Below, piece by piece: positions 2,634 through 12,777 of a stretch of 12,777 nucleotides of DNA. Each line of letters starts with the position of its first letter. Position 1 is the stretch's first letter. A program made the position numbers and the translations under genes. The notes under the pieces were generated by a model. The model searched no databases, was not told the DNA's origin, and saw only the letters and a program-made list of their open reading frames with translations. The DNA lies in the NCBI GenBank assembly GCA_009782015.1, contig WQUP01000110.1:1-12777 (forward strand). Reading direction: 5' to 3'. This DNA is from Endomicrobiia bacterium. GTDB taxonomy: Bacteria; Elusimicrobiota; Endomicrobiia; Endomicrobiales; Endomicrobiaceae.

Positions 2634-5223
2634 AAATTTTACCGCTTCCTGTTTCAATGTACAAATTCAACCTTTCTATTGAGTATATTTTGGCATAAAT
2701 TTCTTCATTTTCCAATAGTTTTTTTAAAATCATTCCCGGTTTGACGCTCTTGCCCTGCCCGAAACGCAAAAGGAGTTTAAGAACGCCGTTTTCGCAGCTC
2801 ATGCTTTTAATAAGCGGCTTTGCATCTATCTGCACGGTTTTGCCTTTCTTCATTTTTTCTACGATTATCTCTTTTTGCGATAAAAACTCGTCTATTTTTT
2901 CCTGCGTTATATTTACATTTTGCACTGAAAATTCAGACAGATTTGCCAAACTGTCTATGGCAGGAAACGTCATCGGCGCCCTCTTTGCCGATATGATTTT
3001 AAACCCATCCGGCAGCGCCGCCGCAAAGCTGTCCGTCACGGCTTTGGGCTCAACTTTTTGCGTAAAATAGAGTTCCATATACTCCGCCGAACTCTCTTCC
3101 CCGACAGAAAGCGGCGGGCCGTAAGCGGATTTTACCTGCGGGCTAAATCCTGCCGTATATGCAACCGGAAGGCCGGAACGCCTTGCCGCTCTTCTGAAAA
3201 CTTCTATCTGCTCCAGATGCGAAACAAACTTTGCTTTGCCTTTTTTTGAAAAACGAAGCCTCATGCGCATAACCGGCGGATTTGCCGCGTGCATTGCCGC
3301 CGGCATTGCCGGCTCTTCATAATTCTCGGGAAGGGCGCATTGCGCCTTATCAAATTTTTCTGTCTCGGCAGAGGCGGTTTCGTTAATGCCTTTTATATAA
3401 TCGGCATACAAGGTATGCTTGGTTACGCCGAAATTTATATGCTCCCACGGGAGGAGTTCGTCCTCTTTTATTGTACGATAGACATAAAAATCAAGGCTTA
3501 GGCCGCTTTCGGAGATTGCTTCGCTCCAAATGTCGTTGCCGAATTTGTCAGCCCACTGGTCAAAGCGCGCGCCTTTTTGCCATGCTTTGTAAATTGCCCG
3601 CGATACGCGGCGGTCGCCTTTTGCTATGAAAGCTTCAATCACGCTTGCGCGGTGATTGTGGGCTTTGATTTTTGCCGGAAGAATTTTATTCAGATAATCT
3701 ATTTTCTCTTTTATTTTTTCAGCGGAAATCATAGGCGCCCATTGGAAAGCGGTCTGGGCTTTTGGCACAAACGGCGAAACCGTGATATTAAAACTGAGGC
3801 CGTCTCCGGCCCCGAGGCCCTTGGCCTCTTTTTTTACAAGGCGCACCAACGTATTTATGCCTGCTAAATCGGCATCCGTTTCCGTAGGGAGCCCTATCAT
3901 AAAATACAATTTTATAGTTTTCCAACCCATAGCGTTGGCCGTGAGAAGCGTTTTGACTATCTGTTTTTCGGAAAGATATTTCCCGATTACATTGCGCAGC
4001 CTGTCCGTGCCTGCTTCCGGGGCAAAAGTAAGGGTCGGCCTTTTGGCGCGGTTTATGTACTGAGCAACTCTTAAAGAATGTTCGTTGCATCTGAGCGACG
4101 GAAGCGATATGCTCAGGTTTGAGCTTTTGTAAAGATTGTTTGTCTCAATCAAAAGTTTGTCCAGCTGCCTGTAATCGCTTGAGGAAAGAGACGAAAACGC
4201 GACCTCTTCATATCCTGTTGACTCGATTCCTTTCTTGACCAGTTCCAATAGAACGCTCAAGGGGCGTTCGCGCCACGGTCTGTAATACTTTGACGCCTGG
4301 CAAAATCTGCACTGACCCGGGCATCCGCGCGCTACTTCGATATTGAGCCTGTTGTGCACGGTTTCGACAAAAGGCACTATTTTTTTTTCGGGGAAATAAG
4401 CGTTTTCGAGATTTAAAGTTCTTTTGTTTATGACGGGTTTTGTTGTTGCCGTCATTGCGAGCGCTGAAGGGGCGCGGCAATCCAGCGTCTTTAAAGACTG
4501 GATTGCCGCGTCAGGACTTTGTCCTTCCTCGCAATGACGACAGAAATGAGATGTTTTTACCGATTTCACCGTGCCGTCACTATTGTACTCCACATCGTAA
4601 AGCGACGGCACATATACTCCGTCAATTTTTGAAAGCTCCTTGAGCTTCTCAGATTTAGGGAGCTTGGCTCCCTTTTTCATAACTTCTATTATTTCAGGCA
4701 AAGCCTCTTCGCCGTCGCCGATTACAAAAGCGTCGAAAAAATCTGCAAAAGGCTCGGGATTTGTCAAAGCAGGACCGCCGCCGATTATCAAGGGGACCTT
4801 GTCCCCTGGGACATTGTCCCCTCTGTCCGCAGCAAACGGCGCAATGCCGGCAAGGTCAAGCATGTTGATTATATTTGCGGCGACAAGCTCGCTCTGTATT
4901 GTAAAGCCCACTATGTCAAAACTTTTCAAACTGCTCTGCGACTCAAGCGAAAAAAGCTCAACCTTCCGCTCCCGCAGGATTTTTTCCAAATCCGAATCCG
5001 GAGCAAAAGCCCGTTCGCAGCGTGCCAGTTTCTTTTCATTAATCAAATGGTACAGAATTTCAATCCCGAGATTTGACGCGCCGACTTCGTAAACATCAGG
5101 AAAGCACAGGCAAACGGAAAAATCCGCTGACATATCGGCAGGATGAGAGTTAAGCTCGCCGTTTATGTATCTCGCGGGTTTTTGCACAAGAGTTAATATT
5201 TCGTCGATTTGCGGATTTTTCAT
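2623..5223 (-). CDS. Fused TIGR03960/TIGR03936-type radical SAM protein with in-frame insertions
   Basis: The 866-residue product joins two units that are often separate neighbouring genes. The first (about 1-600) is a TIGR03960-type B12-binding radical SAM protein: an N-terminal cobalamin-binding-like region (CFPDVYEVGASNLGIEILYH, then LIIGGGPALTNPEP and VIGDGEEALPE), then the radical SAM core with the 4Fe-4S motif CPGQCRFC (C301, C305, C308). The second (from about M652, RMRLRFSKKGKAKFVSHLE onwards) is a TIGR03936/DUF2344 domain. The substrate of this family is not established, as far as I know; it commonly sits beside RNase G and ribosomal protein L21 genes, which suggests an RNA or ribosome role. 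Two stretches look foreign: residues 229-258 are encoded by a palindromic element, and the DNVPGDKVP stretch (residues about 135-144) by a doubled 15-bp palindrome. The reading frame survives both. ATG 5223 has no clear Shine-Dalgarno sequence. It is the first gene of the operon with the SGNH and RNase G genes. Confidence 0.93.
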   Translation of the reverse strand: MKNPQIDEILTLVQKPARYINGELNSHPADMSADFSVCLCFPDVYEVGASNLGIEILYHLINEKKLARCERAFAPDSDLEKILRERKVELFSLESQSSLKSFDIVGFTIQSELVAANIINMLDLAGIAPFAADRGDNVPGDKVPLIIGGGPALTNPEPFADFFDAFVIGDGEEALPEIIEVMKKGAKLPKSEKLKELSKIDGVYVPSLYDVEYNSDGTVKSVKTSHFCRHCEEGQSPDAAIQSLKTLDCRAPSALAMTATTKPVINKRTLNLENAYFPEKKIVPFVETVHNRLNIEVARGCPGQCRFCQASKYYRPWRERPLSVLLELVKKGIESTGYEEVAFSSLSSSDYRQLDKLLIETNNLYKSSNLSISLPSLRCNEHSLRVAQYINRAKRPTLTFAPEAGTDRLRNVIGKYLSEKQIVKTLLTANAMGWKTIKLYFMIGLPTETDADLAGINTLVRLVKKEAKGLGAGDGLSFNITVSPFVPKAQTAFQWAPMISAEKIKEKIDYLNKILPAKIKAHNHRASVIEAFIAKGDRRVSRAIYKAWQKGARFDQWADKFGNDIWSEAISESGLSLDFYVYRTIKEDELLPWEHINFGVTKHTLYADYIKGINETASAETEKFDKAQCALPENYEEPAMPAAMHAANPPVMRMRLRFSKKGKAKFVSHLEQIEVFRRAARRSGLPVAYTAGFSPQVKSAYGPPLSVGEESSAEYMELYFTQKVEPKAVTDSFAAALPDGFKIISAKRAPMTFPAIDSLANLSEFSVQNVNITQEKIDEFLSQKEIIVEKMKKGKTVQIDAKPLIKSMSCENGVLKLLLRFGQGKSVKPGMILKKLLENEEIYAKIYSIERLNLYIETGSGKIYEP
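4450..4539. repeat. Palindromic element A, in frame inside the radical SAM gene (GTCATTGCGA subfamily)
   Basis: The 90-bp element is bounded by the perfect 11-bp inverted repeat CGTCATTGCGA (4450-4460) / TCGCAATGACG (4529-4539). Inside is a second perfect inverted repeat, CGCGGCAATCCAG (4473-4485) / CTGGATTGCCGCG (4498-4510), around the palindrome GTCTTTAAAGAC (4487-4498). A small hairpin AGGAC-TTT-GTCCT (4513-4525) and a weak GCGC/GCGC pair (4461-4475) flank it, so three hairpins can form within an outer stem. At 30 codons it keeps the radical SAM frame open and encodes residues 229-258 (starting CRHCEEGQSPDAAIQ). Peptides like HCEE...DAAIQ are a familiar translation of dispersed repeats in many bacterial genomes, supporting its identity as a repeat rather than native protein sequence. 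Confidence 0.88.
4792..4821. repeat. Tandem pair of 15-bp palindromes adding ten codons to the radical SAM gene
   Basis: Two adjacent 15-mers, GGGGACCTTGTCCCC (4792-4806) and TGGGACATTGTCCCC (4807-4821), are each palindromic around a 3-nt centre. Together they are exactly 30 bp and encode GDNVPGDKVP within ADRGDNVPGDKVPLIIGGGP. From memory of the family, the segment between the Arg and the PLII-GGP motif is normally shorter. The same 13-15 bp module is found in elements B and D. Confidence 0.75.
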
Positions 5224-5349: not shown

Positions 5350-5802
5350 TTATTTATGAGCATACTGAGGATAGCTATCCTCAAGCCAGCGTTTTATTTC
5401 GGTCTCAAACGCTTCGGCTTCTTTTATGAGTTCCGTTACTTCTGTGGAAGAGACGTTAAAAACGCCGGTATAGTCAACCTCATTTCTTTTTGCCCTGCAG
5501 GAATCAAAATATATTGCCGTTTTCCCATGCTCTTTCCCCAGAATATCAGGCAGCGCGTCAAAAACCGCGGCATGATGGCCGGCGCCTTTAGTGTCGTAAC
5601 CGCTGCACAAAAGCGCTATCTTGCCAAGCTGCAAAGCCGCGTTATAGGCCGTAGCGTAACGTCTGTCGTCGGAAAGAGCTTCGATCTTGGCGTCTTTTAT
5701 GTCGCGCTCAACGACTTTCAGCAGATTTGAAATTTCATCAGCTGAGGTTTTGCGTTTTTTTATGCGGTCAGCCGCCAAAAGTTTTGTTAAAGTCATCTTC
5801 AT
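5350..5802 (-). CDS. HEPN-domain protein, putative toxin partner of the adjacent nucleotidyltransferase
   Basis: The 150-residue all-helical protein resembles HEPN proteins of the SAV_6107-like type. The sequence shows the N-terminal helix with RRYATAYNAALQLGKIAL, the GAGHHAAVF turn, and the late motif SCRAKRNEVDYTG. In HEPN toxins an R-x4-6-H motif is the RNase active site. Here the Arg-Asn (R106-N107) is kept but the His position is Asp (D110), followed by Y111, so RNase activity cannot be assumed. In characterised HEPN/MNT pairs, MNT modifies a Tyr near this motif by AMPylation. The gene overlaps the upstream nucleotidyltransferase by 35 bp, the usual tight coupling of such pairs. The start is ATG 5802, or the third codon ATG 5796, which has a better-spaced GGGAA before it. 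It stops with TAA at 5350, just ahead of element B. Confidence 0.8.
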   Translation of the reverse strand: MKMTLTKLLAADRIKKRKTSADEISNLLKVVERDIKDAKIEALSDDRRYATAYNAALQLGKIALLCSGYDTKGAGHHAAVFDALPDILGKEHGKTAIYFDSCRAKRNEVDYTGVFNVSSTEVTELIKEAEAFETEIKRWLEDSYPQYAHK

Positions 5803-6358
5803 TTCCCGTTAAAAAAATTTTTTTGGCTCTCATAAGTTCCGTGACAAAATGGTTTGAAATTTCAAGCTTTTTCTTAAATTCGTCTTTTGTCATCAGCATG
5901 TAGTTTATCTCTTTAAAATAACCTTCTTTGAGAGGGCTGAAAGCCGCAGATAAATCTTTCGCGCTTATGTTTCCTATTACAAAAACGTCCAAATCGCTGT
6001 CTTTGTTTTCTTTTCCGTCCGCATACGAACCGTAAATAAAAGCAAAATCCACGGCATCCGCATTATCCTTAAGCGCAGCTTTTATTCCCGCTTGGACATC
6101 CGGAAACTTCAGGAAAATATCCCTGAGCTGTTTATAAATAACCCAGTTTTTGTTTATCGAATAATATGTGATTTTTGAAGACGGAAACTTATTCAAAGCG
6201 CCTATAGAATCCAGCTTTTTAAGTTCCCTGTTCACAGCGGTAACCGGCTGGGATATAAGCTGAGCTATCTGATTTTGGTAGAACTTTTCATCGCTGTGAA
6301 GCAAAAGCAGCCGCAGCAGTCCGGTTCTAGTTTTTGAAGAAAATAAGATTTCAAGCAT
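5768..6358 (-). CDS. Winged-helix/MNT nucleotidyltransferase, putative antitoxin and autorepressor
   Basis: The 196-residue product has two parts. Residues 1-70 form a winged helix-turn-helix of ArsR/MarR-like shape (KFYQNQIAQLISQPVTAVNRELKKL, then a wing ending KITYYSINK). Residues about 100-185 form a minimal nucleotidyltransferase with the full signature G110-S111-x10-D122-x-D124 (IYGSYADGKENKDSDLDVFV). MNT proteins next to HEPN genes act as antitoxins, in studied cases by AMPylating the HEPN toxin; the fused DNA-binding domain suggests this one also represses its own promoter. That fits the two palindromic operators around the -10 box just upstream. Start ATG 6358 is the first in frame after the promoter, with a short leader of about 29 nt and only a weak GAGAG-type ribosome site. 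The antitoxin precedes the toxin and their ends overlap by 35 bp. Solitary regulatory nucleotidyltransferases exist, so the toxin-antitoxin role is inferred from the pair. Confidence 0.85.
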   Translation of the reverse strand: MLEILFSSKTRTGLLRLLLLHSDEKFYQNQIAQLISQPVTAVNRELKKLDSIGALNKFPSSKITYYSINKNWVIYKQLRDIFLKFPDVQAGIKAALKDNADAVDFAFIYGSYADGKENKDSDLDVFVIGNISAKDLSAAFSPLKEGYFKEINYMLMTKDEFKKKLEISNHFVTELMRAKKIFLTGNEDDFNKTFGG

Positions 6359-6593: not shown

Positions 6594-9500
6594 TTAAGCG
6601 GCGGAAAGGATTTTCTGGATGCGCAGGATGTTTGTATCCGCGTAGGGATCTGACGGCATTGTTATAATTTCTTCTTTCCAAGCAGACGGCAATAATTGCG
6701 CAACTTCAAGAAGCGTCTTTTGATAGCTTGCATCGTCAGACGGGTTTTGACGCAGTTCTTTCATTATTTCGTTTGCAAGCCGCTGATCATTTTGCGCAAC
6801 GGCATAACGCATCAAATCCGGCCAATCTTTATTTGTCAATTGCGTTTTGCCGGAAATAAACATGGTTATTAACTCTTGCGCCTGCGCTTCCGGGATGACT
6901 TGTTCAGGCTCTGTCGATTTGCCAACATTTGCCTTTGCGGTATTTGCTCTTGCCTGCACTACTTTATATTTTTTGTTTGCGTTAAAACCGAACTCTATAT
7001 CCGGGTCGAAGTTAAATTTTTTCCTTATTTTTAGTATTGCTCTTACGATTTCTCTTATTTCGATTATTTCTCCCGTTTCTTCATCTTCTTTGCTGAATAT
7101 TCTTATTTTTCGGCCTTCAGCCGCTTTTACCAATTCGCTTGTTCCGTATTCATTTGTTATTATTTTCCATTCTTTATCTTCCGGCTCGTAGTCAAGTATT
7201 TCAAATGCGCCTTTTTCAAAGTCCGTTATCCTGACCTTTATTTCATCGGACGCCACCTTATTTCCTACTATCCCCTCGCAATCCCCGTATGCCGCATTTA
7301 TCGTGAGAATATCGCCGTCAAGTATTGCCACGCCGCTTTTTTCAAAATCTTCCCAATCTTGTATTGCCATCGCGGGATATACAATTGTGCCGCTGTTTAT
7401 CATATATTCTATGGCGCGGTCTGAATAAAACGCTTCCAATATTTCCGGAATAGCTTTTGGAGCTTGTTCTCTTTTTACTTTTTTCTTTGTTTCTCCCATG
7501 CCTGCAAACGGATGAGTTTGGTCATCTTCCCCTTCTCCTGCAGAACGAAATGCCGCTGCTTTGATGTTTAGTTTTTTCATCATTTTTATTACTGCATCCG
7601 TCAATTTTTTTGCCTGTTTTTCTTTGCCTTGCGCTTCTCTTATCAACTCTTTTATTGCGTTTCGGCGCGGTTCTATGCGGCTTTTCTTTTCCTCAAAACT
7701 CAAACTGCCGTCGGCTATTATACTGCTTATCTCCTGCTCCAATCTGTCAAATTCTAATCCTTTGCTGCCGACATAATATCTTACCGCGTTCTTGTCTAAT
7801 ACCAGTCCGTCGGGAATTATATTTTCGTCTTTAAACACTTCTTGCCGCATTACCGCCAGATTCCAGCCTTTGTTTCCGTTTTTTTCTTTGTCTGAGAGTT
7901 TTAAATCTTTGAAAGTTTTTATTATTTCTGCAATGCTTAATTCGTTTAGCGGGGTCTTTACTTTGTCATTCTGCGCAATAGTCGCAGAATCTATGGAATT
8001 AACTTCCTTATTGTTTATAGATCCTGCGACTGCGGGGACAATGTCCCCTTCGCGCAGGATGACAGATTGGGATGGAAGCACGGTTTTGGGGTCTAAAAAT
8101 TCTATCATTGAAAGTTTGCGGTTCATCGATACTTTATCGCCGGTTTTTAGTGTTATTTTTATGCCTTCCGCCGTCTGCGCCTGTATTCCGTTTATGTTTC
8201 TTATTTCCCCTGCAGGTTTAACCGACGAAATCTCTACCATATTATCTTTTTGCAAGACCGCTCTCTTTAACACCATTGACGGTTTTTCGCGGTTTCTTGT
8301 TTCTATAGCCGCATGGCTTGTATAACCGCCGCCTAAAGTCAGTACGGCTCCGATATGGTTTAATATCTCCATATCGTCGGGAGTGGTATATGGCACCGCC
8401 CAGATAAGTCTTTTTGCTCTTTGCGGATCGGTCTCTATTATTTTTTTAATTTTTGTTCTGTCTGCATCTACTATTATTTCCCCTGCAAATGTCTCGCTTG
8501 TTCCTTCCGAAGTTACTGAAGTTGCCGCAGTAAGATTTTTTGTTATATTTATTTCTTGTTTCAATGCGTTTATTAATGAATTTTGTTCGCTTTTGCTTAT
8601 TGTTTCGAGCTTTAAATTTTCATAACCTTCCTGCGTTAATCTTTCTATTAATTTTGCCGCGCTTATCGGCCTGCCGCGGTCGCTTGCAAGTCTGACTTTT
8701 GCCGCTTTTATTGTTTTTCTTTTGCTAACTACTGCTTTTACCGATAGATAATCCCCGTCCTCTAACTGAATATAGCCCGTTTGCAAAGTGTTTTGCCCGC
8801 CGAGTTTTGCGACTTCTTGAAACTTGAAGTATCTGGGGTTAATTATCTGGTTTATTATGCTGCCGGCTTCAAACATATTATTTCTGTTTTCGCCCTGCAA
8901 ATCACCGGCAATCTCGGCAATAACGTCATAGTTTTCATTCTTTTCCAATTGGCCGTTTTCATTTAATATAATTCTTCCTTCCGCATACGCCCTTTCCAAA
9001 GGCTCGTTGAAATATTTATCTATTACGGACTGCGGATTGTAATCATATTCTTTCTTTAAATCATCCTTGATTACTTCAAGTCCTAAGTTTTGCAATATAG
9101 TGTTTAATTTATTCTGAATTCTTTTTAACGGCGGATATGCGGATTTATAGTAATTAACAGCATTGCCATTAAATTCCGCCGCAAAAAAATTACGGACATA
9201 TAAATCCACATCCTTATTTGTATATGTTTTTCCGAATAAAAAATAAGGCTGGAAAGTTAAAGTTTTAAACAAACATATTGTTTGGGCTAATATATTTGCC
9301 AAATCCGCATCATTATTAAGTCCGGTGTCTTTATCAAGTTTTGCGTCTATTCCTAAAGTTTCTCCTTCGTATTTAACCGCGCTAAAGCCTAATTTTTCTA
9401 AAACTCTTTTCATATATTCCAATCTGAATCTTTCATCGGTGCCCTTATCGCCTTCATAAAAAGATACCGATATTCCTCTGCCGCTTTGGCTAAAATCCGC

Positions 9501-12500
9501 TTTTAATGAAATTCTGCTGGTCGAAGTTCTTTCGTAGCTCCAAAACAACAGATTGTCTTTCAAAAGCATTTTGTTTATATCGAATTCATAATCGGCTGCC
9601 ATCAGCGTTCTAAACATTTTCATTATTTCGGAATTTATTTTCCCGTCTTTTGATAAATTGATTATTTTTATTTCTTTCGGGCGCGTATTTATCCCCAAAT
9701 TGGAAAAATAGGCGTTCGCGTCTTTTCCTTCGTCTCCCAAGCCGTATAGATAACTATTTAAAATCCCGACAAACTCTTTTACCGCATCTTCATGCGAACC
9801 GTTAAACAACCATTCGTTCAGCAGTTTTCTTATTTTTTGCCAATTGTCCTTGCGTATATCTTCCTTAATGCCGTTTTTAAATGTTTTATACTCCCTTTGC
9901 CATTTTTTCGCGGCAGCGGGTGCAAATAACGACATTATTTCTATCATCCGCTCAAAGTAACCGAGCGCCGTATTTAAACTTTGTTTGTCGCTGACCGTAT
10001 TTACAAAGTTCACGGATTTTTCATTATAATCTAAAAAAGAGATTTCGCCGGTTTCGCTCGGGGAAAATAAATCAATAATTTCAACGATGTTGCGCATTTC
10101 GGGCGAGGAAACGTCTATGTAGGAAGATCCGGCGAAAAGATATTTTTCTTTTTTTTCTGCCGGCGCAAACAATGCCGTCTGATGCAGCTTAGACGCTAAA
10201 GGTGTTAATGAAAATTCTTTCCGGTAGCCCGCTTCTTTCAAAAACATCCCCGGAACGTATTTTGGATATTGTATTTTAACTTCGTGGGATTTTAATTTTC
10301 TCGCAAAATCTAAAACTTCTTTATAATGTTCCGGGCCGGCTAAAGGAACAAGTTTTATTATCAGTTCTATTGCTTCAATGGTAATTCCTTCTAAGTCGAA
10401 TTTTTCTAAGAACATTTTTTGAAACAATTTATTTTCTTTATATCGAGCGGCGGTTTCTTTAAATTTCTCAGGATCAATTTTATTATTTTTGGCAAAACTA
10501 GCTGCTGAAGACGTAATGTGGTTATTTAACTCGGGCAGCTCAGACATAAGAATTCCTACATTTTCTATCCCTTCGGCAGTAACTTCGGCTCTATTCTCAA
10601 GAAGATTGTAAAACCACGGCGTATTTTGATATTTGGCAATTATCTTTTTAAATTTTTCAGGGTCTATTTCATTACCCAACGCAAAAGAGTAAAACTTTTC
10701 TACGTCAAAATCAACGCCAAGATATGATTCAATGGTATCAAGATTTCTTATTCCGTCAGCCGTAATTAAAGGTATCCGGTATTTTCCTGAAAAAAGCTCA
10801 TCTTCAAACCATTTTTTGCCTTTGAAATCTTTTATTATCTTTTTAAGCTGCCCGGGAGAAATTCTACTGTAACGCCCGAAGTCAACTAAATTAGGCGTAG
10901 TTTTAACGCCTAATTTAGATATAAGTATTCCGATATTTTCTAATCCTTCGGCGCTAAGTTCGTATATACGGTATTTGCCGGAAAAAATTTCCCTAAACTC
11001 GGGGTATTTTTTATATTCATTGACTATGCGTTTAAATTCTTTCGGAATAATTTTATTATTCTTTCCAAAACGATGATACAACTCAACCGAATAATCAAGT
11101 TTTAGAGTTGACGCCGCATAACATATATTTTCTAAGCTGTCGGCGGTAAGCGCGGAAAGACTATTATTACCCGAAAAAATTTGCTGGAACATTTTTTTGC
11201 TGTTTTTATATCTTGCGGCTATATCTGCCAAATCCTGCACGGATATTTTGTAGTCTCTCCAATCACTGACCAAATCTATTTCTTTTATGCCGATATTTAA
11301 AGCGGTAAGCGTTGTGATGATATTTTCCAGCGCGTCCGTTGTAAGATGACTGATTATGTAAACATCCGTAGAAAACATATATTGGAATAATTCGTTTTTT
11401 TCATAATATCCGGCAAATAGTTTTTTAATTTTTTCAAGAGAGTTTTTTGGATTTATTACAAATCCCGTTAAGCCCGTAAGATCCCTGTTAAAATAAGACA
11501 TAATAAACGCGGTTTTTTCTATTGCTTCTTCACTGACGCCTTTTTCTGATTTAGAAAGAAGTTCGTAAAACCAAGGTTTATCCTGATACCGCGCGGCAAT
11601 TTTTTTAAATCTTTCATGGCGGATTATGTTATCTCCCGCAAACTTTGCAAACGCATCTACGCTGAAATCATCCCCCATGTAAGACGCGATAGTATCAATG
11701 TTTTTTATTGCGTCAGCCGTAAGATCTTTTCCGGCTTTCTTGATAAGCTCATAAAACCAAGGTTTGTTCCCGTATTGCGCGATTATTTCTTTAAATTTTT
11801 CATGCGGAATTTTGTTTCCCGCAAAACCTGCAAACGCGCCTAAGTTAAAATCATCGCCCAAATAAGATGAAATAGTATCGATATTTTTTACTCCTTCGGC
11901 CGATATTTCATAATCTTTGGAAGCAAAATCTTGAATCCATTTATATTTATTTATCAATCTTTTAAATACTCTTACGGGGATTTTGTTACTAGTAATAAAG
12001 CTGGCTAATTTATACGTAGTATTAACGTTAAAAGTATCTGCAAACGCAGATAGTTTTTCTATGCTTTCGGGTGTTAACTTAGAACGCCAGCTTATATCAT
12101 AATCACGTGAAAAAAGCTCTTGAAACCATGCTTTCTTTCCGAATTTTTTAACCATTTTTTGAAATTCTTTTGATTTGGCGACCCATGTTTTAATTAACTG
12201 CGCAGGAGAAAAATCCGGAAATTCATTATTTAACCGTGGTGCAAAATAATATACATTATCGGCTGTGGTTATTTCAAATCTGTTTTTCTCCGTGAACTTT
12301 ATGGAGATTTTTTCTTTATCTTCTTTATCTTTGTTATAGGCTTGCGCTGTTTGTAATATTATTTCTGAAAATTCTTTATCGCCAAATACTCCGCTTTTGT
12401 GAAGTTTTGCTATTTCCATAAACACGGTTTGTAATTCATTCGCATATCCTGTTTCAACAAGCAGCGCGAATGCGTTTATATTTGCTTCATCTGTCTGCGC

Positions 12501-12777
12501 TTTTTCTTGTTCGTTAAACTGTTTTATATATATTTTTTCCGCTGTTTTTACTTCCGTATTGATTTTTGGCGTCAATACCAATACGGATAATCCTTTGCTT
12601 ACAAGTATTTGTTTTAACTCTTCCGTATGGAACCCGCCGGTTACTGCAACGGAGACATTCTCTTTGTCATAGAACATAGCTTCAAGCTTGTCATTCCCGA
12701 ATGTTTTTGTCGGGAATCCATTTAAAGACAACGCGGATCCCCGATTACGACCTTCGGGGATGACAGGCTTGGGGGTG
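6594..12777 (-). CDS. Giant repeat protein with phosphohistidine and PPDK-like ATP-binding domains, 5' end beyond window
   Basis: At least 2,060 residues are visible and the frame is open at the right edge. The first start-like codon (TTG 12731; numbering below uses it as 1) lies inside element E and is not credible as the true start. Order: a short conserved segment VAVTGGFHT (29-36); about ten helical repeats of ~62 residues (about 174-812); a central region of unknown fold (to about 1395), including LDKDTGLNNDADLANILAQT; a PEP-utiliser swivelling domain with GGGYTSHAAI (putative phospho-His H1473); an element-derived linker (about 1556-1590); and a PPDK/PEP-synthase-type ATP-binding domain (about 1600-1935) with AFRSAGEGED (R1729), PFAGMGET, SGVAILDGD, YGDCEGIVGNKV and VVQARANT; then a ~110-residue tail. 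Having both domains but no PEP barrel, and His before ATP, recalls glucan water dikinases, so transfer of an ATP phosphate through His to an unknown acceptor is plausible. There is no visible signal peptide. Substrate unknown. Confidence 0.85.
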   Translation of the reverse strand, partial: TPKPVIPEGRNRGSALSLNGFPTKTFGNDKLEAMFYDKENVSVAVTGGFHTEELKQILVSKGLSVLVLTPKINTEVKTAEKIYIKQFNEQEKAQTDEANINAFALLVETGYANELQTVFMEIAKLHKSGVFGDKEFSEIILQTAQAYNKDKEDKEKISIKFTEKNRFEITTADNVYYFAPRLNNEFPDFSPAQLIKTWVAKSKEFQKMVKKFGKKAWFQELFSRDYDISWRSKLTPESIEKLSAFADTFNVNTTYKLASFITSNKIPVRVFKRLINKYKWIQDFASKDYEISAEGVKNIDTISSYLGDDFNLGAFAGFAGNKIPHEKFKEIIAQYGNKPWFYELIKKAGKDLTADAIKNIDTIASYMGDDFSVDAFAKFAGDNIIRHERFKKIAARYQDKPWFYELLSKSEKGVSEEAIEKTAFIMSYFNRDLTGLTGFVINPKNSLEKIKKLFAGYYEKNELFQYMFSTDVYIISHLTTDALENIITTLTALNIGIKEIDLVSDWRDYKISVQDLADIAARYKNSKKMFQQIFSGNNSLSALTADSLENICYAASTLKLDYSVELYHRFGKNNKIIPKEFKRIVNEYKKYPEFREIFSGKYRIYELSAEGLENIGILISKLGVKTTPNLVDFGRYSRISPGQLKKIIKDFKGKKWFEDELFSGKYRIPLITADGIRNLDTIESYLGVDFDVEKFYSFALGNEIDPEKFKKIIAKYQNTPWFYNLLENRAEVTAEGIENVGILMSELPELNNHITSSAASFAKNNKIDPEKFKETAARYKENKLFQKMFLEKFDLEGITIEAIELIIKLVPLAGPEHYKEVLDFARKLKSHEVKIQYPKYVPGMFLKEAGYRKEFSLTPLASKLHQTALFAPAEKKEKYLFAGSSYIDVSSPEMRNIVEIIDLFSPSETGEISFLDYNEKSVNFVNTVSDKQSLNTALGYFERMIEIMSLFAPAAAKKWQREYKTFKNGIKEDIRKDNWQKIRKLLNEWLFNGSHEDAVKEFVGILNSYLYGLGDEGKDANAYFSNLGINTRPKEIKIINLSKDGKINSEIMKMFRTLMAADYEFDINKMLLKDNLLFWSYERTSTSRISLKADFSQSGRGISVSFYEGDKGTDERFRLEYMKRVLEKLGFSAVKYEGETLGIDAKLDKDTGLNNDADLANILAQTICLFKTLTFQPYFLFGKTYTNKDVDLYVRNFFAAEFNGNAVNYYKSAYPPLKRIQNKLNTILQNLGLEVIKDDLKKEYDYNPQSVIDKYFNEPLERAYAEGRIILNENGQLEKNENYDVIAEIAGDLQGENRNNMFEAGSIINQIINPRYFKFQEVAKLGGQNTLQTGYIQLEDGDYLSVKAVVSKRKTIKAAKVRLASDRGRPISAAKLIERLTQEGYENLKLETISKSEQNSLINALKQEINITKNLTAATSVTSEGTSETFAGEIIVDADRTKIKKIIETDPQRAKRLIWAVPYTTPDDMEILNHIGAVLTLGGGYTSHAAIETRNREKPSMVLKRAVLQKDNMVEISSVKPAGEIRNINGIQAQTAEGIKITLKTGDKVSMNRKLSMIEFLDPKTVLPSQSVILREGDIVPAVAGSINNKEVNSIDSATIAQNDKVKTPLNELSIAEIIKTFKDLKLSDKEKNGNKGWNLAVMRQEVFKDENIIPDGLVLDKNAVRYYVGSKGLEFDRLEQEISSIIADGSLSFEEKKSRIEPRRNAIKELIREAQGKEKQAKKLTDAVIKMMKKLNIKAAAFRSAGEGEDDQTHPFAGMGETKKKVKREQAPKAIPEILEAFYSDRAIEYMINSGTIVYPAMAIQDWEDFEKSGVAILDGDILTINAAYGDCEGIVGNKVASDEIKVRITDFEKGAFEILDYEPEDKEWKIITNEYGTSELVKAAEGRKIRIFSKEDEETGEIIEIREIVRAILKIRKKFNFDPDIEFGFNANKKYKVVQARANTAKANVGKSTEPEQVIPEAQAQELITMFISGKTQLTNKDWPDLMRYAVAQNDQRLANEIMKELRQNPSDDASYQKTLLEVAQLLPSAWKEEIITMPSDPYADTNILRIQKILSAA
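7964..8064. repeat. Palindromic element D, in frame inside the giant gene (GTCATCCTG subfamily)
   Basis: The ~101-bp element is bounded by TGTCATTCTGCGCAA (7964-7978) and TTCGCGCAGGATGACA (8049-8064). The inner arms AGTCGCAGAATCTAT (7980-7994) and ATAGATCCTGCGACT (8017-8031) pair at 14 of 15 positions. The 15-bp palindrome GGGGACAATGTCCCC (8034-8048) sits between the inner and outer right arms. Translated in the gene's frame it gives about 34 residues (VILREGDIVPAVAG onwards) between the phosphohistidine and ATP-binding domains. End sequence, internal plan and the GGGGAC module all match element B. Confidence 0.85.
10300..12215 (-). repeat. About ten tandem ~62-residue protein repeats in the giant gene
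   Basis: Nine full copies and partial copies at both ends share the pattern LTaeaIeNIdtI-SyLg-Df-v--Fa-Fa--NkI-peKFKkIia-Y--kpWFyeLfS. Examples are LTADAIKNIDTIASYMGDDF followed by KFKKIAARYQDKPWFYELLS-type segments, and ITADGIRNLDTIESYLGVDF with KFKKIIAKYQNTPWFYNLLE. The spacing and alternating hydrophobic pattern suggest three helices per unit stacked into a solenoid, as in ARM/HEAT-like scaffolds, but I do not recognise a named family. Copies 2, 3 and 8 are the most alike, pointing to recent duplication. Confidence 0.85.
12684..12770. repeat. Palindromic element E, in frame near the visible 5' part of the giant gene (GTCATTCCCGA subfamily)
   Basis: Outer arms AAGCTTGTCAT (12684-12694) and ATGACAGGCTT (12760-12770) pair at 10 of 11 positions and enclose 87 bp, which is 29 codons. 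Inside are hairpins ATTCCCGA / TCGGGAAT (12693-12700 / 12710-12717) and ATCCCCGA / TCGGGGAT (12737-12744 / 12754-12761). The giant gene's frame runs through it without a stop and on to the window edge. The left half resembles element C (both continue ATCCATTT...AAA). Confidence 0.78.

Follow-up and report, generated by a model that had tools for sequence, protein, structure and literature searches.

In plant glucan and phosphoglucan water dikinases (GWD and PWD) the swivel domain precedes the ATP-grasp domain and there is no PEP barrel. PEP synthase likewise combines ATP-grasp and swivel domains, the latter with a GGxTSHAA motif according to the available text of PMC12167813, and the same text describes two-component phenolic dikinases (HpeHI, CreHI, PpsAB) that carry a swivel histidine without a pyruvate barrel, HpeHI as two separate chains. 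The rifampin phosphotransferase RPH-Lm also has an ATP-grasp fold and a swivel histidine and no pyruvate barrel, with the ATP-grasp domain first, the histidine last, and Lys22, Arg117 and Thr136 positioning ATP (accessible part of PMC4844700). A second group of relevant proteins, the giant ORFs of Omnitrophota and the huge proteins of Elusimicrobiota, is portrayed in the excerpts of PMC10066038, PMC11573180 and PMC12057145 available to us as very large, poorly annotated and often from host-associated lineages, and neither a shared head or tail nor dikinase cargo is described in those excerpts. Here we analyse a gene that shares features with both groups: it encodes a single giant chain with a dikinase module embedded in it, the module having the inverse domain order to PEP synthase and no PEP/pyruvate barrel. 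The head-bearing giant family to which the gene belongs was not found described in the literature we searched. Among the matches listed from open-licence papers there was no description of head, tail or dikinase family, the part of PMC3482391 available to us holds nothing on a head-bearing dikinase family, and the main text of PMC11257099 does not mention giants, dikinases, secretion or large proteins.

The window, by which we mean the whole stretch of 12,777 nucleotides that was analysed, is an entire contig (C110) of a draft Endomicrobiia genome (G000; 1.58 Mb in 290 contigs, 71% complete). The frame of the giant gene stays open for 2060 codons up to the last bases of the window, which are the contig end, and because the window is the whole contig the protein must be truncated by the assembly. 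It is not complete in the window: its N-terminal part lies past the contig end, where our residue numbering starts (Table 1). A 30-base stretch there (window 12735-12764) has a 97% identical copy in another contig (L022), which suggests that the assembly broke inside a dispersed repeat. This repeat marks the 5′ end as an assembly break and is the point in favour of regarding the frame as an assembly or frame artefact that fuses unrelated genes. The arrangement of head, swivel and ATP-grasp domains is nevertheless found again in P0004 and L019, and the frames that hold module matches, in 20/60 genomes, are free of internal stops. Given this recurrence across genomes we dropped the artefact reading for the part within the window and regard it overall as extremely improbable.

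Table 1. Features of the giant gene, given as window positions and as residues counted from the contig end
Feature	Position	Strand	Details
Giant gene	6594..12776	-	2060 codons in view; 5′ end beyond contig end; stop codon 6594-6596
Last piece of N-terminal head	12516..12722	-	Residues 19-87, matching head profile 389-442 (59.3 bits); GGFH motif, H50
Nine ~62-residue repeats	10428..12128	-	Residues 217-783; profile search
Central domain, proposed acceptor-binding part	8457..10373	-	About residues 802-1440; near-invariant N918, H995, S1042, R1118
Swivel phosphohistidine domain core (PEP-utilizers)	8268..8405	-	Residues 1458-1503; catalytic H1488 at 8313-8315; Pfam
ATP-grasp domain (PPDK_N)	6915..7877	-	Residues 1634-1954; K1636, R1744, E1750, T1763, E1928, Q1941, R1943; Pfam
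C-terminal tail ILSAA	6597..6611	-	Common to head-bearing family

Elsewhere in the window, genes for a HEPN protein (SAV_6107-like; 5350-5802) and a nucleotidyltransferase (5768-6358) lie on the minus strand immediately downstream of the giant gene and match two candidate defence models in PADLOC, PDC-M05B (E 3e-50) and PDC-M05A (E 5e-47); the giant protein itself had no match in the PADLOC search. Within a radical SAM gene, short pieces of the stretch at 4381-4560 recur in other contigs and resemble intragenic repeat elements. A 15-base tandem repeat at 1352-1443, inside the gene for a TPR-like protein (1284-2657), codes for a low-complexity Gly/Ala/Pro/Ser stretch.

The first-pass annotation had placed a phosphohistidine domain before the ATP-binding domain, the inverse of the order in PEP synthase and PPDK. 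Profile searches bore this out. Pfam PEP-utilizers matched residues 1458-1503 (E 8.3e-8, 32.2 bits against a cut-off of 23.1) and PPDK_N residues 1634-1954 (E 4.3e-26, 92.4 bits against 27), both above their cut-offs, so the order stands; the chain stops 106 residues past the PPDK_N match. As a control, the ordinary PPDK of the same genome (L022) gave PPDK_N, PEP-utilizers and PEP-utilizers_C in the usual order. The absence of a PEP/pyruvate barrel and of a starch-binding domain, claimed from the sequence, likewise held, neither PEP-utilizers_C (PF02896) nor any carbohydrate-binding module being found by Pfam at E≤1 across the 2060 residues in view. The sole other Pfam match at E≤1, Intein_splicing at residues 282-387, fell below threshold (15.9 bits against a cut-off of 35.8) and was rejected. 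Against NCBIfam, the best match was PEP synthase PRK06464.1 (E 3.7e-27, 94.7 bits against a model cut-off of 598). By its PPDK_N domain, its swivel domain and histidine and its ATP-contacting residues the module can be assigned to the PEP synthase/PPDK/RPH superfamily, yet its domain order would make it neither PEP synthase, PPDK nor RPH proper, the first two being excluded also by the missing barrel.

The catalytic motifs are intact, as first proposed: H1488 (in GGGYTSHAA), K1636, R1744, E1750, T1763, E1928, Q1941 and R1943 are all there. In our reading of motif and spacing, K1636, R1744 and T1763 would correspond to Lys22, Arg117 and Thr136 of RPH. Across modules of the same genome and its relatives, conservation in the ATP-grasp domain was K 47/47, R 47/47, E 47/47, E 49/49, Q 48/48 and R 48/48, and the swivel histidine was kept in 46/47, the exception being one of two swivel hits in frame L098; these counts take every hit spanning the position, exclude the 9 to 11 of 58 ATP-grasp hits that fall short, and rest on two profiles that were both built from five of the same modules. 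The 39 other modules in our alignment (A4) are 19-52% identical to that of the window, and near-invariance of the catalytic positions at such identities strongly argues for an active enzyme. We conclude that the dikinase module is probably catalytically active. A different explanation is that the domain was captured, is catalytically idle and has been retained for a structural or binding role in a surface giant. This would accord with the available portion of PMC10066038, where sparsely annotated giant ORFs of Omnitrophota are interpreted as adhesins or coats. The window copy also deviates at one near-invariant position of the central domain (1087, serine in the window and histidine in the other 36 of 37 sequences), which counts against this copy being fully normal. 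Near-absolute catalytic conservation at 19-52% identity would not, however, be expected of an idle domain, and we consider this explanation very unlikely.

A structure model of 1163 residues (mean pLDDT 82.3) placed the module among the same relatives. Foldseek returned 5hv1 (E 3.0e-14), 2ols (E 6.3e-13), 5hv6 (TM 0.80 by target length) and 2fm4, the carrier domain of PPDK (E 1.1e-3); with the whole 1163-residue model as query, ~340 columns aligned to RPH, a length that fits the ATP-grasp domain. When 40 modules were combined into a profile and compared with solved structures, the profile matched PEP synthase and rifampin phosphotransferase (the latter deposited as PEP synthase) in its ATP-grasp part, and PPDK and Enzyme I in its swivel part. 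Descent from the genome's own PPDK was considered and rejected: BLASTP against L022 gave nothing significant for the ATP-grasp half (best E 0.23) and a weak match for the swivel half (E 6.7e-8).

These comparisons bear on the proposal that the protein is glucan water dikinase-like, of which the domain order stood and the kinship was weakened, since the ATP-grasp half matches PEP synthase and RPH in both sequence and fold. The likeness to the plant enzymes is one of order only: both have the swivel ahead of the ATP-grasp domain and no PEP barrel, whereas the window protein is a giant without a starch-binding module, has a swivel motif of the PEP synthase type and belongs to a family of bacterial giants with heads. 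The order, shared with plant GWD, would nonetheless fit a bacterial analogue that phosphorylates glycogen or another polysaccharide in the cytosol, or glucans outside, and 50/60 genomes, this one included, hold a match to the glycogen phosphorylase family. Phosphorylase genes occur also in module-free genomes (for example G008, G009 and G014), and on this ground we rejected a glycogen link. Moreover, Pfam detected no carbohydrate-binding module at E≤1, and the nearest relatives found in sequence and fold were PEP synthase and RPH, GWD sequences lying outside the comparison. A search of the open-licence literature on GWD, phosphohistidine and PPDK yielded no paper. We therefore judge a glucan dikinase analogue to be distinctly unlikely.

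Upstream of the catalytic pair, the long array of ~62-residue repeats noticed at first reading was recovered as nine units, three of them independent finds, six having seeded the profile. Two or three such repeats occur in P0004 and P0005 and several in L034, none were detected in the remaining module-bearing frames searched, and in L019 a membrane segment of the CPBP/Rce1 type occupies the position of the array; the repeats resemble a spacer or scaffold that can be exchanged. The central domain, by contrast, accompanies the catalytic pair. It has no match in Pfam (about residues 802-1440), and N918 (35/35), H995 (37/37), S1042 (37/37) and R1118 (36/37) are conserved within it. The first-pass annotation had supposed that either the repeats or the central region chooses the acceptor of the phosphate. 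The copy number of the repeats varies and they go undetected in the other frames searched, whereas the central domain keeps company with the catalytic pair. The former part of this idea is therefore unlikely, and we take the conserved central domain to be the likely acceptor site.

The visible N-terminus identifies the protein as one of a family. It holds the last piece of a domain of ~444 residues, here called the head, which stands at the N-terminus of many giants of the same genome and its relatives. Head matches were found in at least 35/60 genomes, this one included, with at least 17 in this genome and up to at least 26 in one genome. Foldseek found nothing for the head at E≤0.001, a comparison with the sequences of solved structures gave a best E of 0.04 to an unrelated protein, and no consistent Pfam family emerged apart from DUF1722, whose weak matches (9/21 members, best E 4.4e-6) we take as helix likeness and reject as an assignment. 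With respect to the Ere/ChaN (Tiki) superfamily, the head is Ere/ChaN-like at best. In the loop ahead of the GGFH motif of the head, several proteins (L019, L024, L087 and L102) are expanded by extra repeat-like sequence. Three proteins labelled Omnitrophota (P0085, P0097 and P0117) have distant heads of 21-25% identity, which possibly link the giant ORFs of that phylum to the head-bearing family.

A signal-peptide-like stretch precedes the head in 27/27 frames with a complete head start, as called by a crude hydrophobicity rule and in other frames than that of the window, whose own N-terminus lies beyond the contig end. Many of the segments ahead of the head have, by eye, an A-x-A-like end, and in a wider set 99/105 head proteins starting with M carry a signal-like start by a similar rule. 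The closest full-length relative, P0004 (1995 residues, 51% identity over the module), consists of a signal-like start, head, repeats, swivel and ATP-grasp domain without a further hydrophobic segment; the window protein, too, has no hydrophobic segment past the head. At the other end of the chain, a short motif such as ILSAA or MLAAA terminates 23/25 family frames with a stop (that of the window included) against 2/124 other frames of at least 300 residues, counts that come from related genomes and so are not independent, and from a pattern written after the tails were seen. One of the two non-family frames with the motif (744 residues, 5′-truncated) adjoins the L019 giant. In the wider set the tail was present in 64/106 proteins, truncated ones counted in, and it was mostly absent where the heads are most distant. 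The tail may serve as a sorting or processing signal.

Dikinase modules, taken as matches above 100 bits, were present in 20/60 genomes: 19/36 of the family of the window, 1/7 others of its order and 0/17 outside the order. A further 31 genomes have module matches reaching at most 28.1 bits, nearly always in frames of ~900 residues, as expected of ordinary dikinases, and 9 have no match. The named relatives are Endomicrobiaceae (Elusimicrobiota), with matches in Candidatus Endomicrobium neocapritermitis, Ca. E. embiratermitis, Ca. Ruminimicrobiellum species and Elusimicrobia bacterium isolates. According to the available text of PMC11257099, the Endomicrobiaceae include free-living gut bacteria as well as endosymbionts of termite flagellates, Endomicrobiellum being of the latter kind, so presence and loss of the module can be compared with lifestyle. 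None of the six small-genome relatives of genus g8 (1.0-1.3 Mb) has the module and three lack the head among the matches listed, so their lifestyle does not require the module.

The dikinase module is one of several kinds of cargo. A PPDK_N label is borne by 28/105 head proteins, a share biased by a query head taken from a dikinase giant; other labels comprise LMW phosphatase and several metabolic families. P0066 (3483 residues) has a signal-like start and head ahead of phosphoglucomutase domains, PGK (E 3.9e-128) and PGI (E 3.8e-178), and ends in MLAAA. Above cut-off, PGK was found in a giant frame in 6/60 genomes, at least 2/6 of these frames being head-bearing (G001:C78 and G004:C17). Five of the six genomes also encode PGK in full within a frame of 419-441 residues, and in the sixth, G007, ordinary PGK was seen as a 71-residue fragment at a contig end. 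Since a complete ordinary PGK coexists with the giant one in 5/6 genomes, cytosolic need does not explain the giant copies; they look additional, which would fit a use outside the producer's cytosol. One other giant of 3451 residues (L032 3-10355, plus strand) combines a head piece with LMW phosphatase and trypsin-like domains. Weak glycogen-phosphorylase-like stretches were also noted in G052:C35 (3502 residues, E 2.4e-8), G047:C16 (3236 residues, E 1.2e-7) and G041:C63 (7386 residues, E 8e-4).

We propose that the gene belongs to a multigene family of giant mosaics exported by the Sec route in the Endomicrobiaceae and their order, each laid out as a signal peptide, an Ere/ChaN-like head, a variable middle (a helical repeat array here, a CPBP/Rce1-type membrane segment in several relatives), in this case a dikinase module, and, at the C-terminus, a short conserved tail. 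The window copy, assigned to the family by its head piece and tail, would probably be exported as well. In the proposed reaction the ATP-grasp domain would bind Mg-ATP, H1488 on the swivel domain would accept the beta-phosphate with release of AMP and Pi, and the swivel domain would then deliver the phosphate to an acceptor bound by the central domain. Such a protein would act outside the producing cell, its ATP presumably coming from another cell or the surroundings. Taken together, an exported mosaic giant with an active module of the PEP synthase/RPH type and an acceptor site in its central domain is the reading that we favour, with a confidence slightly better than even.

Against export, ATP is not expected in the periplasm, and CPBP-bearing relatives with an odd number of membrane segments could have a cytosolic module, the number of segments being variable. 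The signal-like segment might accordingly be a mere membrane anchor, or the chain might return, leaving the dikinase to work in the producer's cytosol in a possibly metabolic or regulatory role. The reaction requires ATP, the family's cargo (PGK, PGI, phosphoglucomutase, LMW phosphatase) looks cytosolic, and membrane segments of the CPBP type do lie between head and module in relatives such as L019. On the other hand, the segments before the head resemble signal peptides in every frame with a complete head start, many with A-x-A-like ends; neither the window protein nor P0004 has a hydrophobic segment past the head; and an ordinary PPDK is encoded in the same genome, as a complete PGK accompanies the giant copy in most genomes that have one. 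We regard a cytosolic dikinase as unlikely, and continue to prefer the exported one.

More tentatively, and with rather less than even confidence, we suggest that this lineage exports a whole repertoire of giant mosaics, defined by an Ere/ChaN-like head and a sorting tail and bearing working enzymes of cytosolic type, which would constitute an undescribed delivery system. To our knowledge, ATP-dependent phosphotransferases beyond the cytosol are rare among bacteria; a family of giants exported with their dikinase and PGK cargo intact would, if real, raise the questions of where their nucleotides come from and what their substrates are. Head and tail together provide simple sequence handles by which part of the unannotated giants of Elusimicrobiota, and perhaps distantly of Omnitrophota, could be sorted into one system. 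If the proposal is true, these bacteria would deliver phosphoryl-transfer chemistry, in the form of dikinase, PGK, PGI, phosphoglucomutase and LMW phosphatase, into or onto other cells of the gut community.
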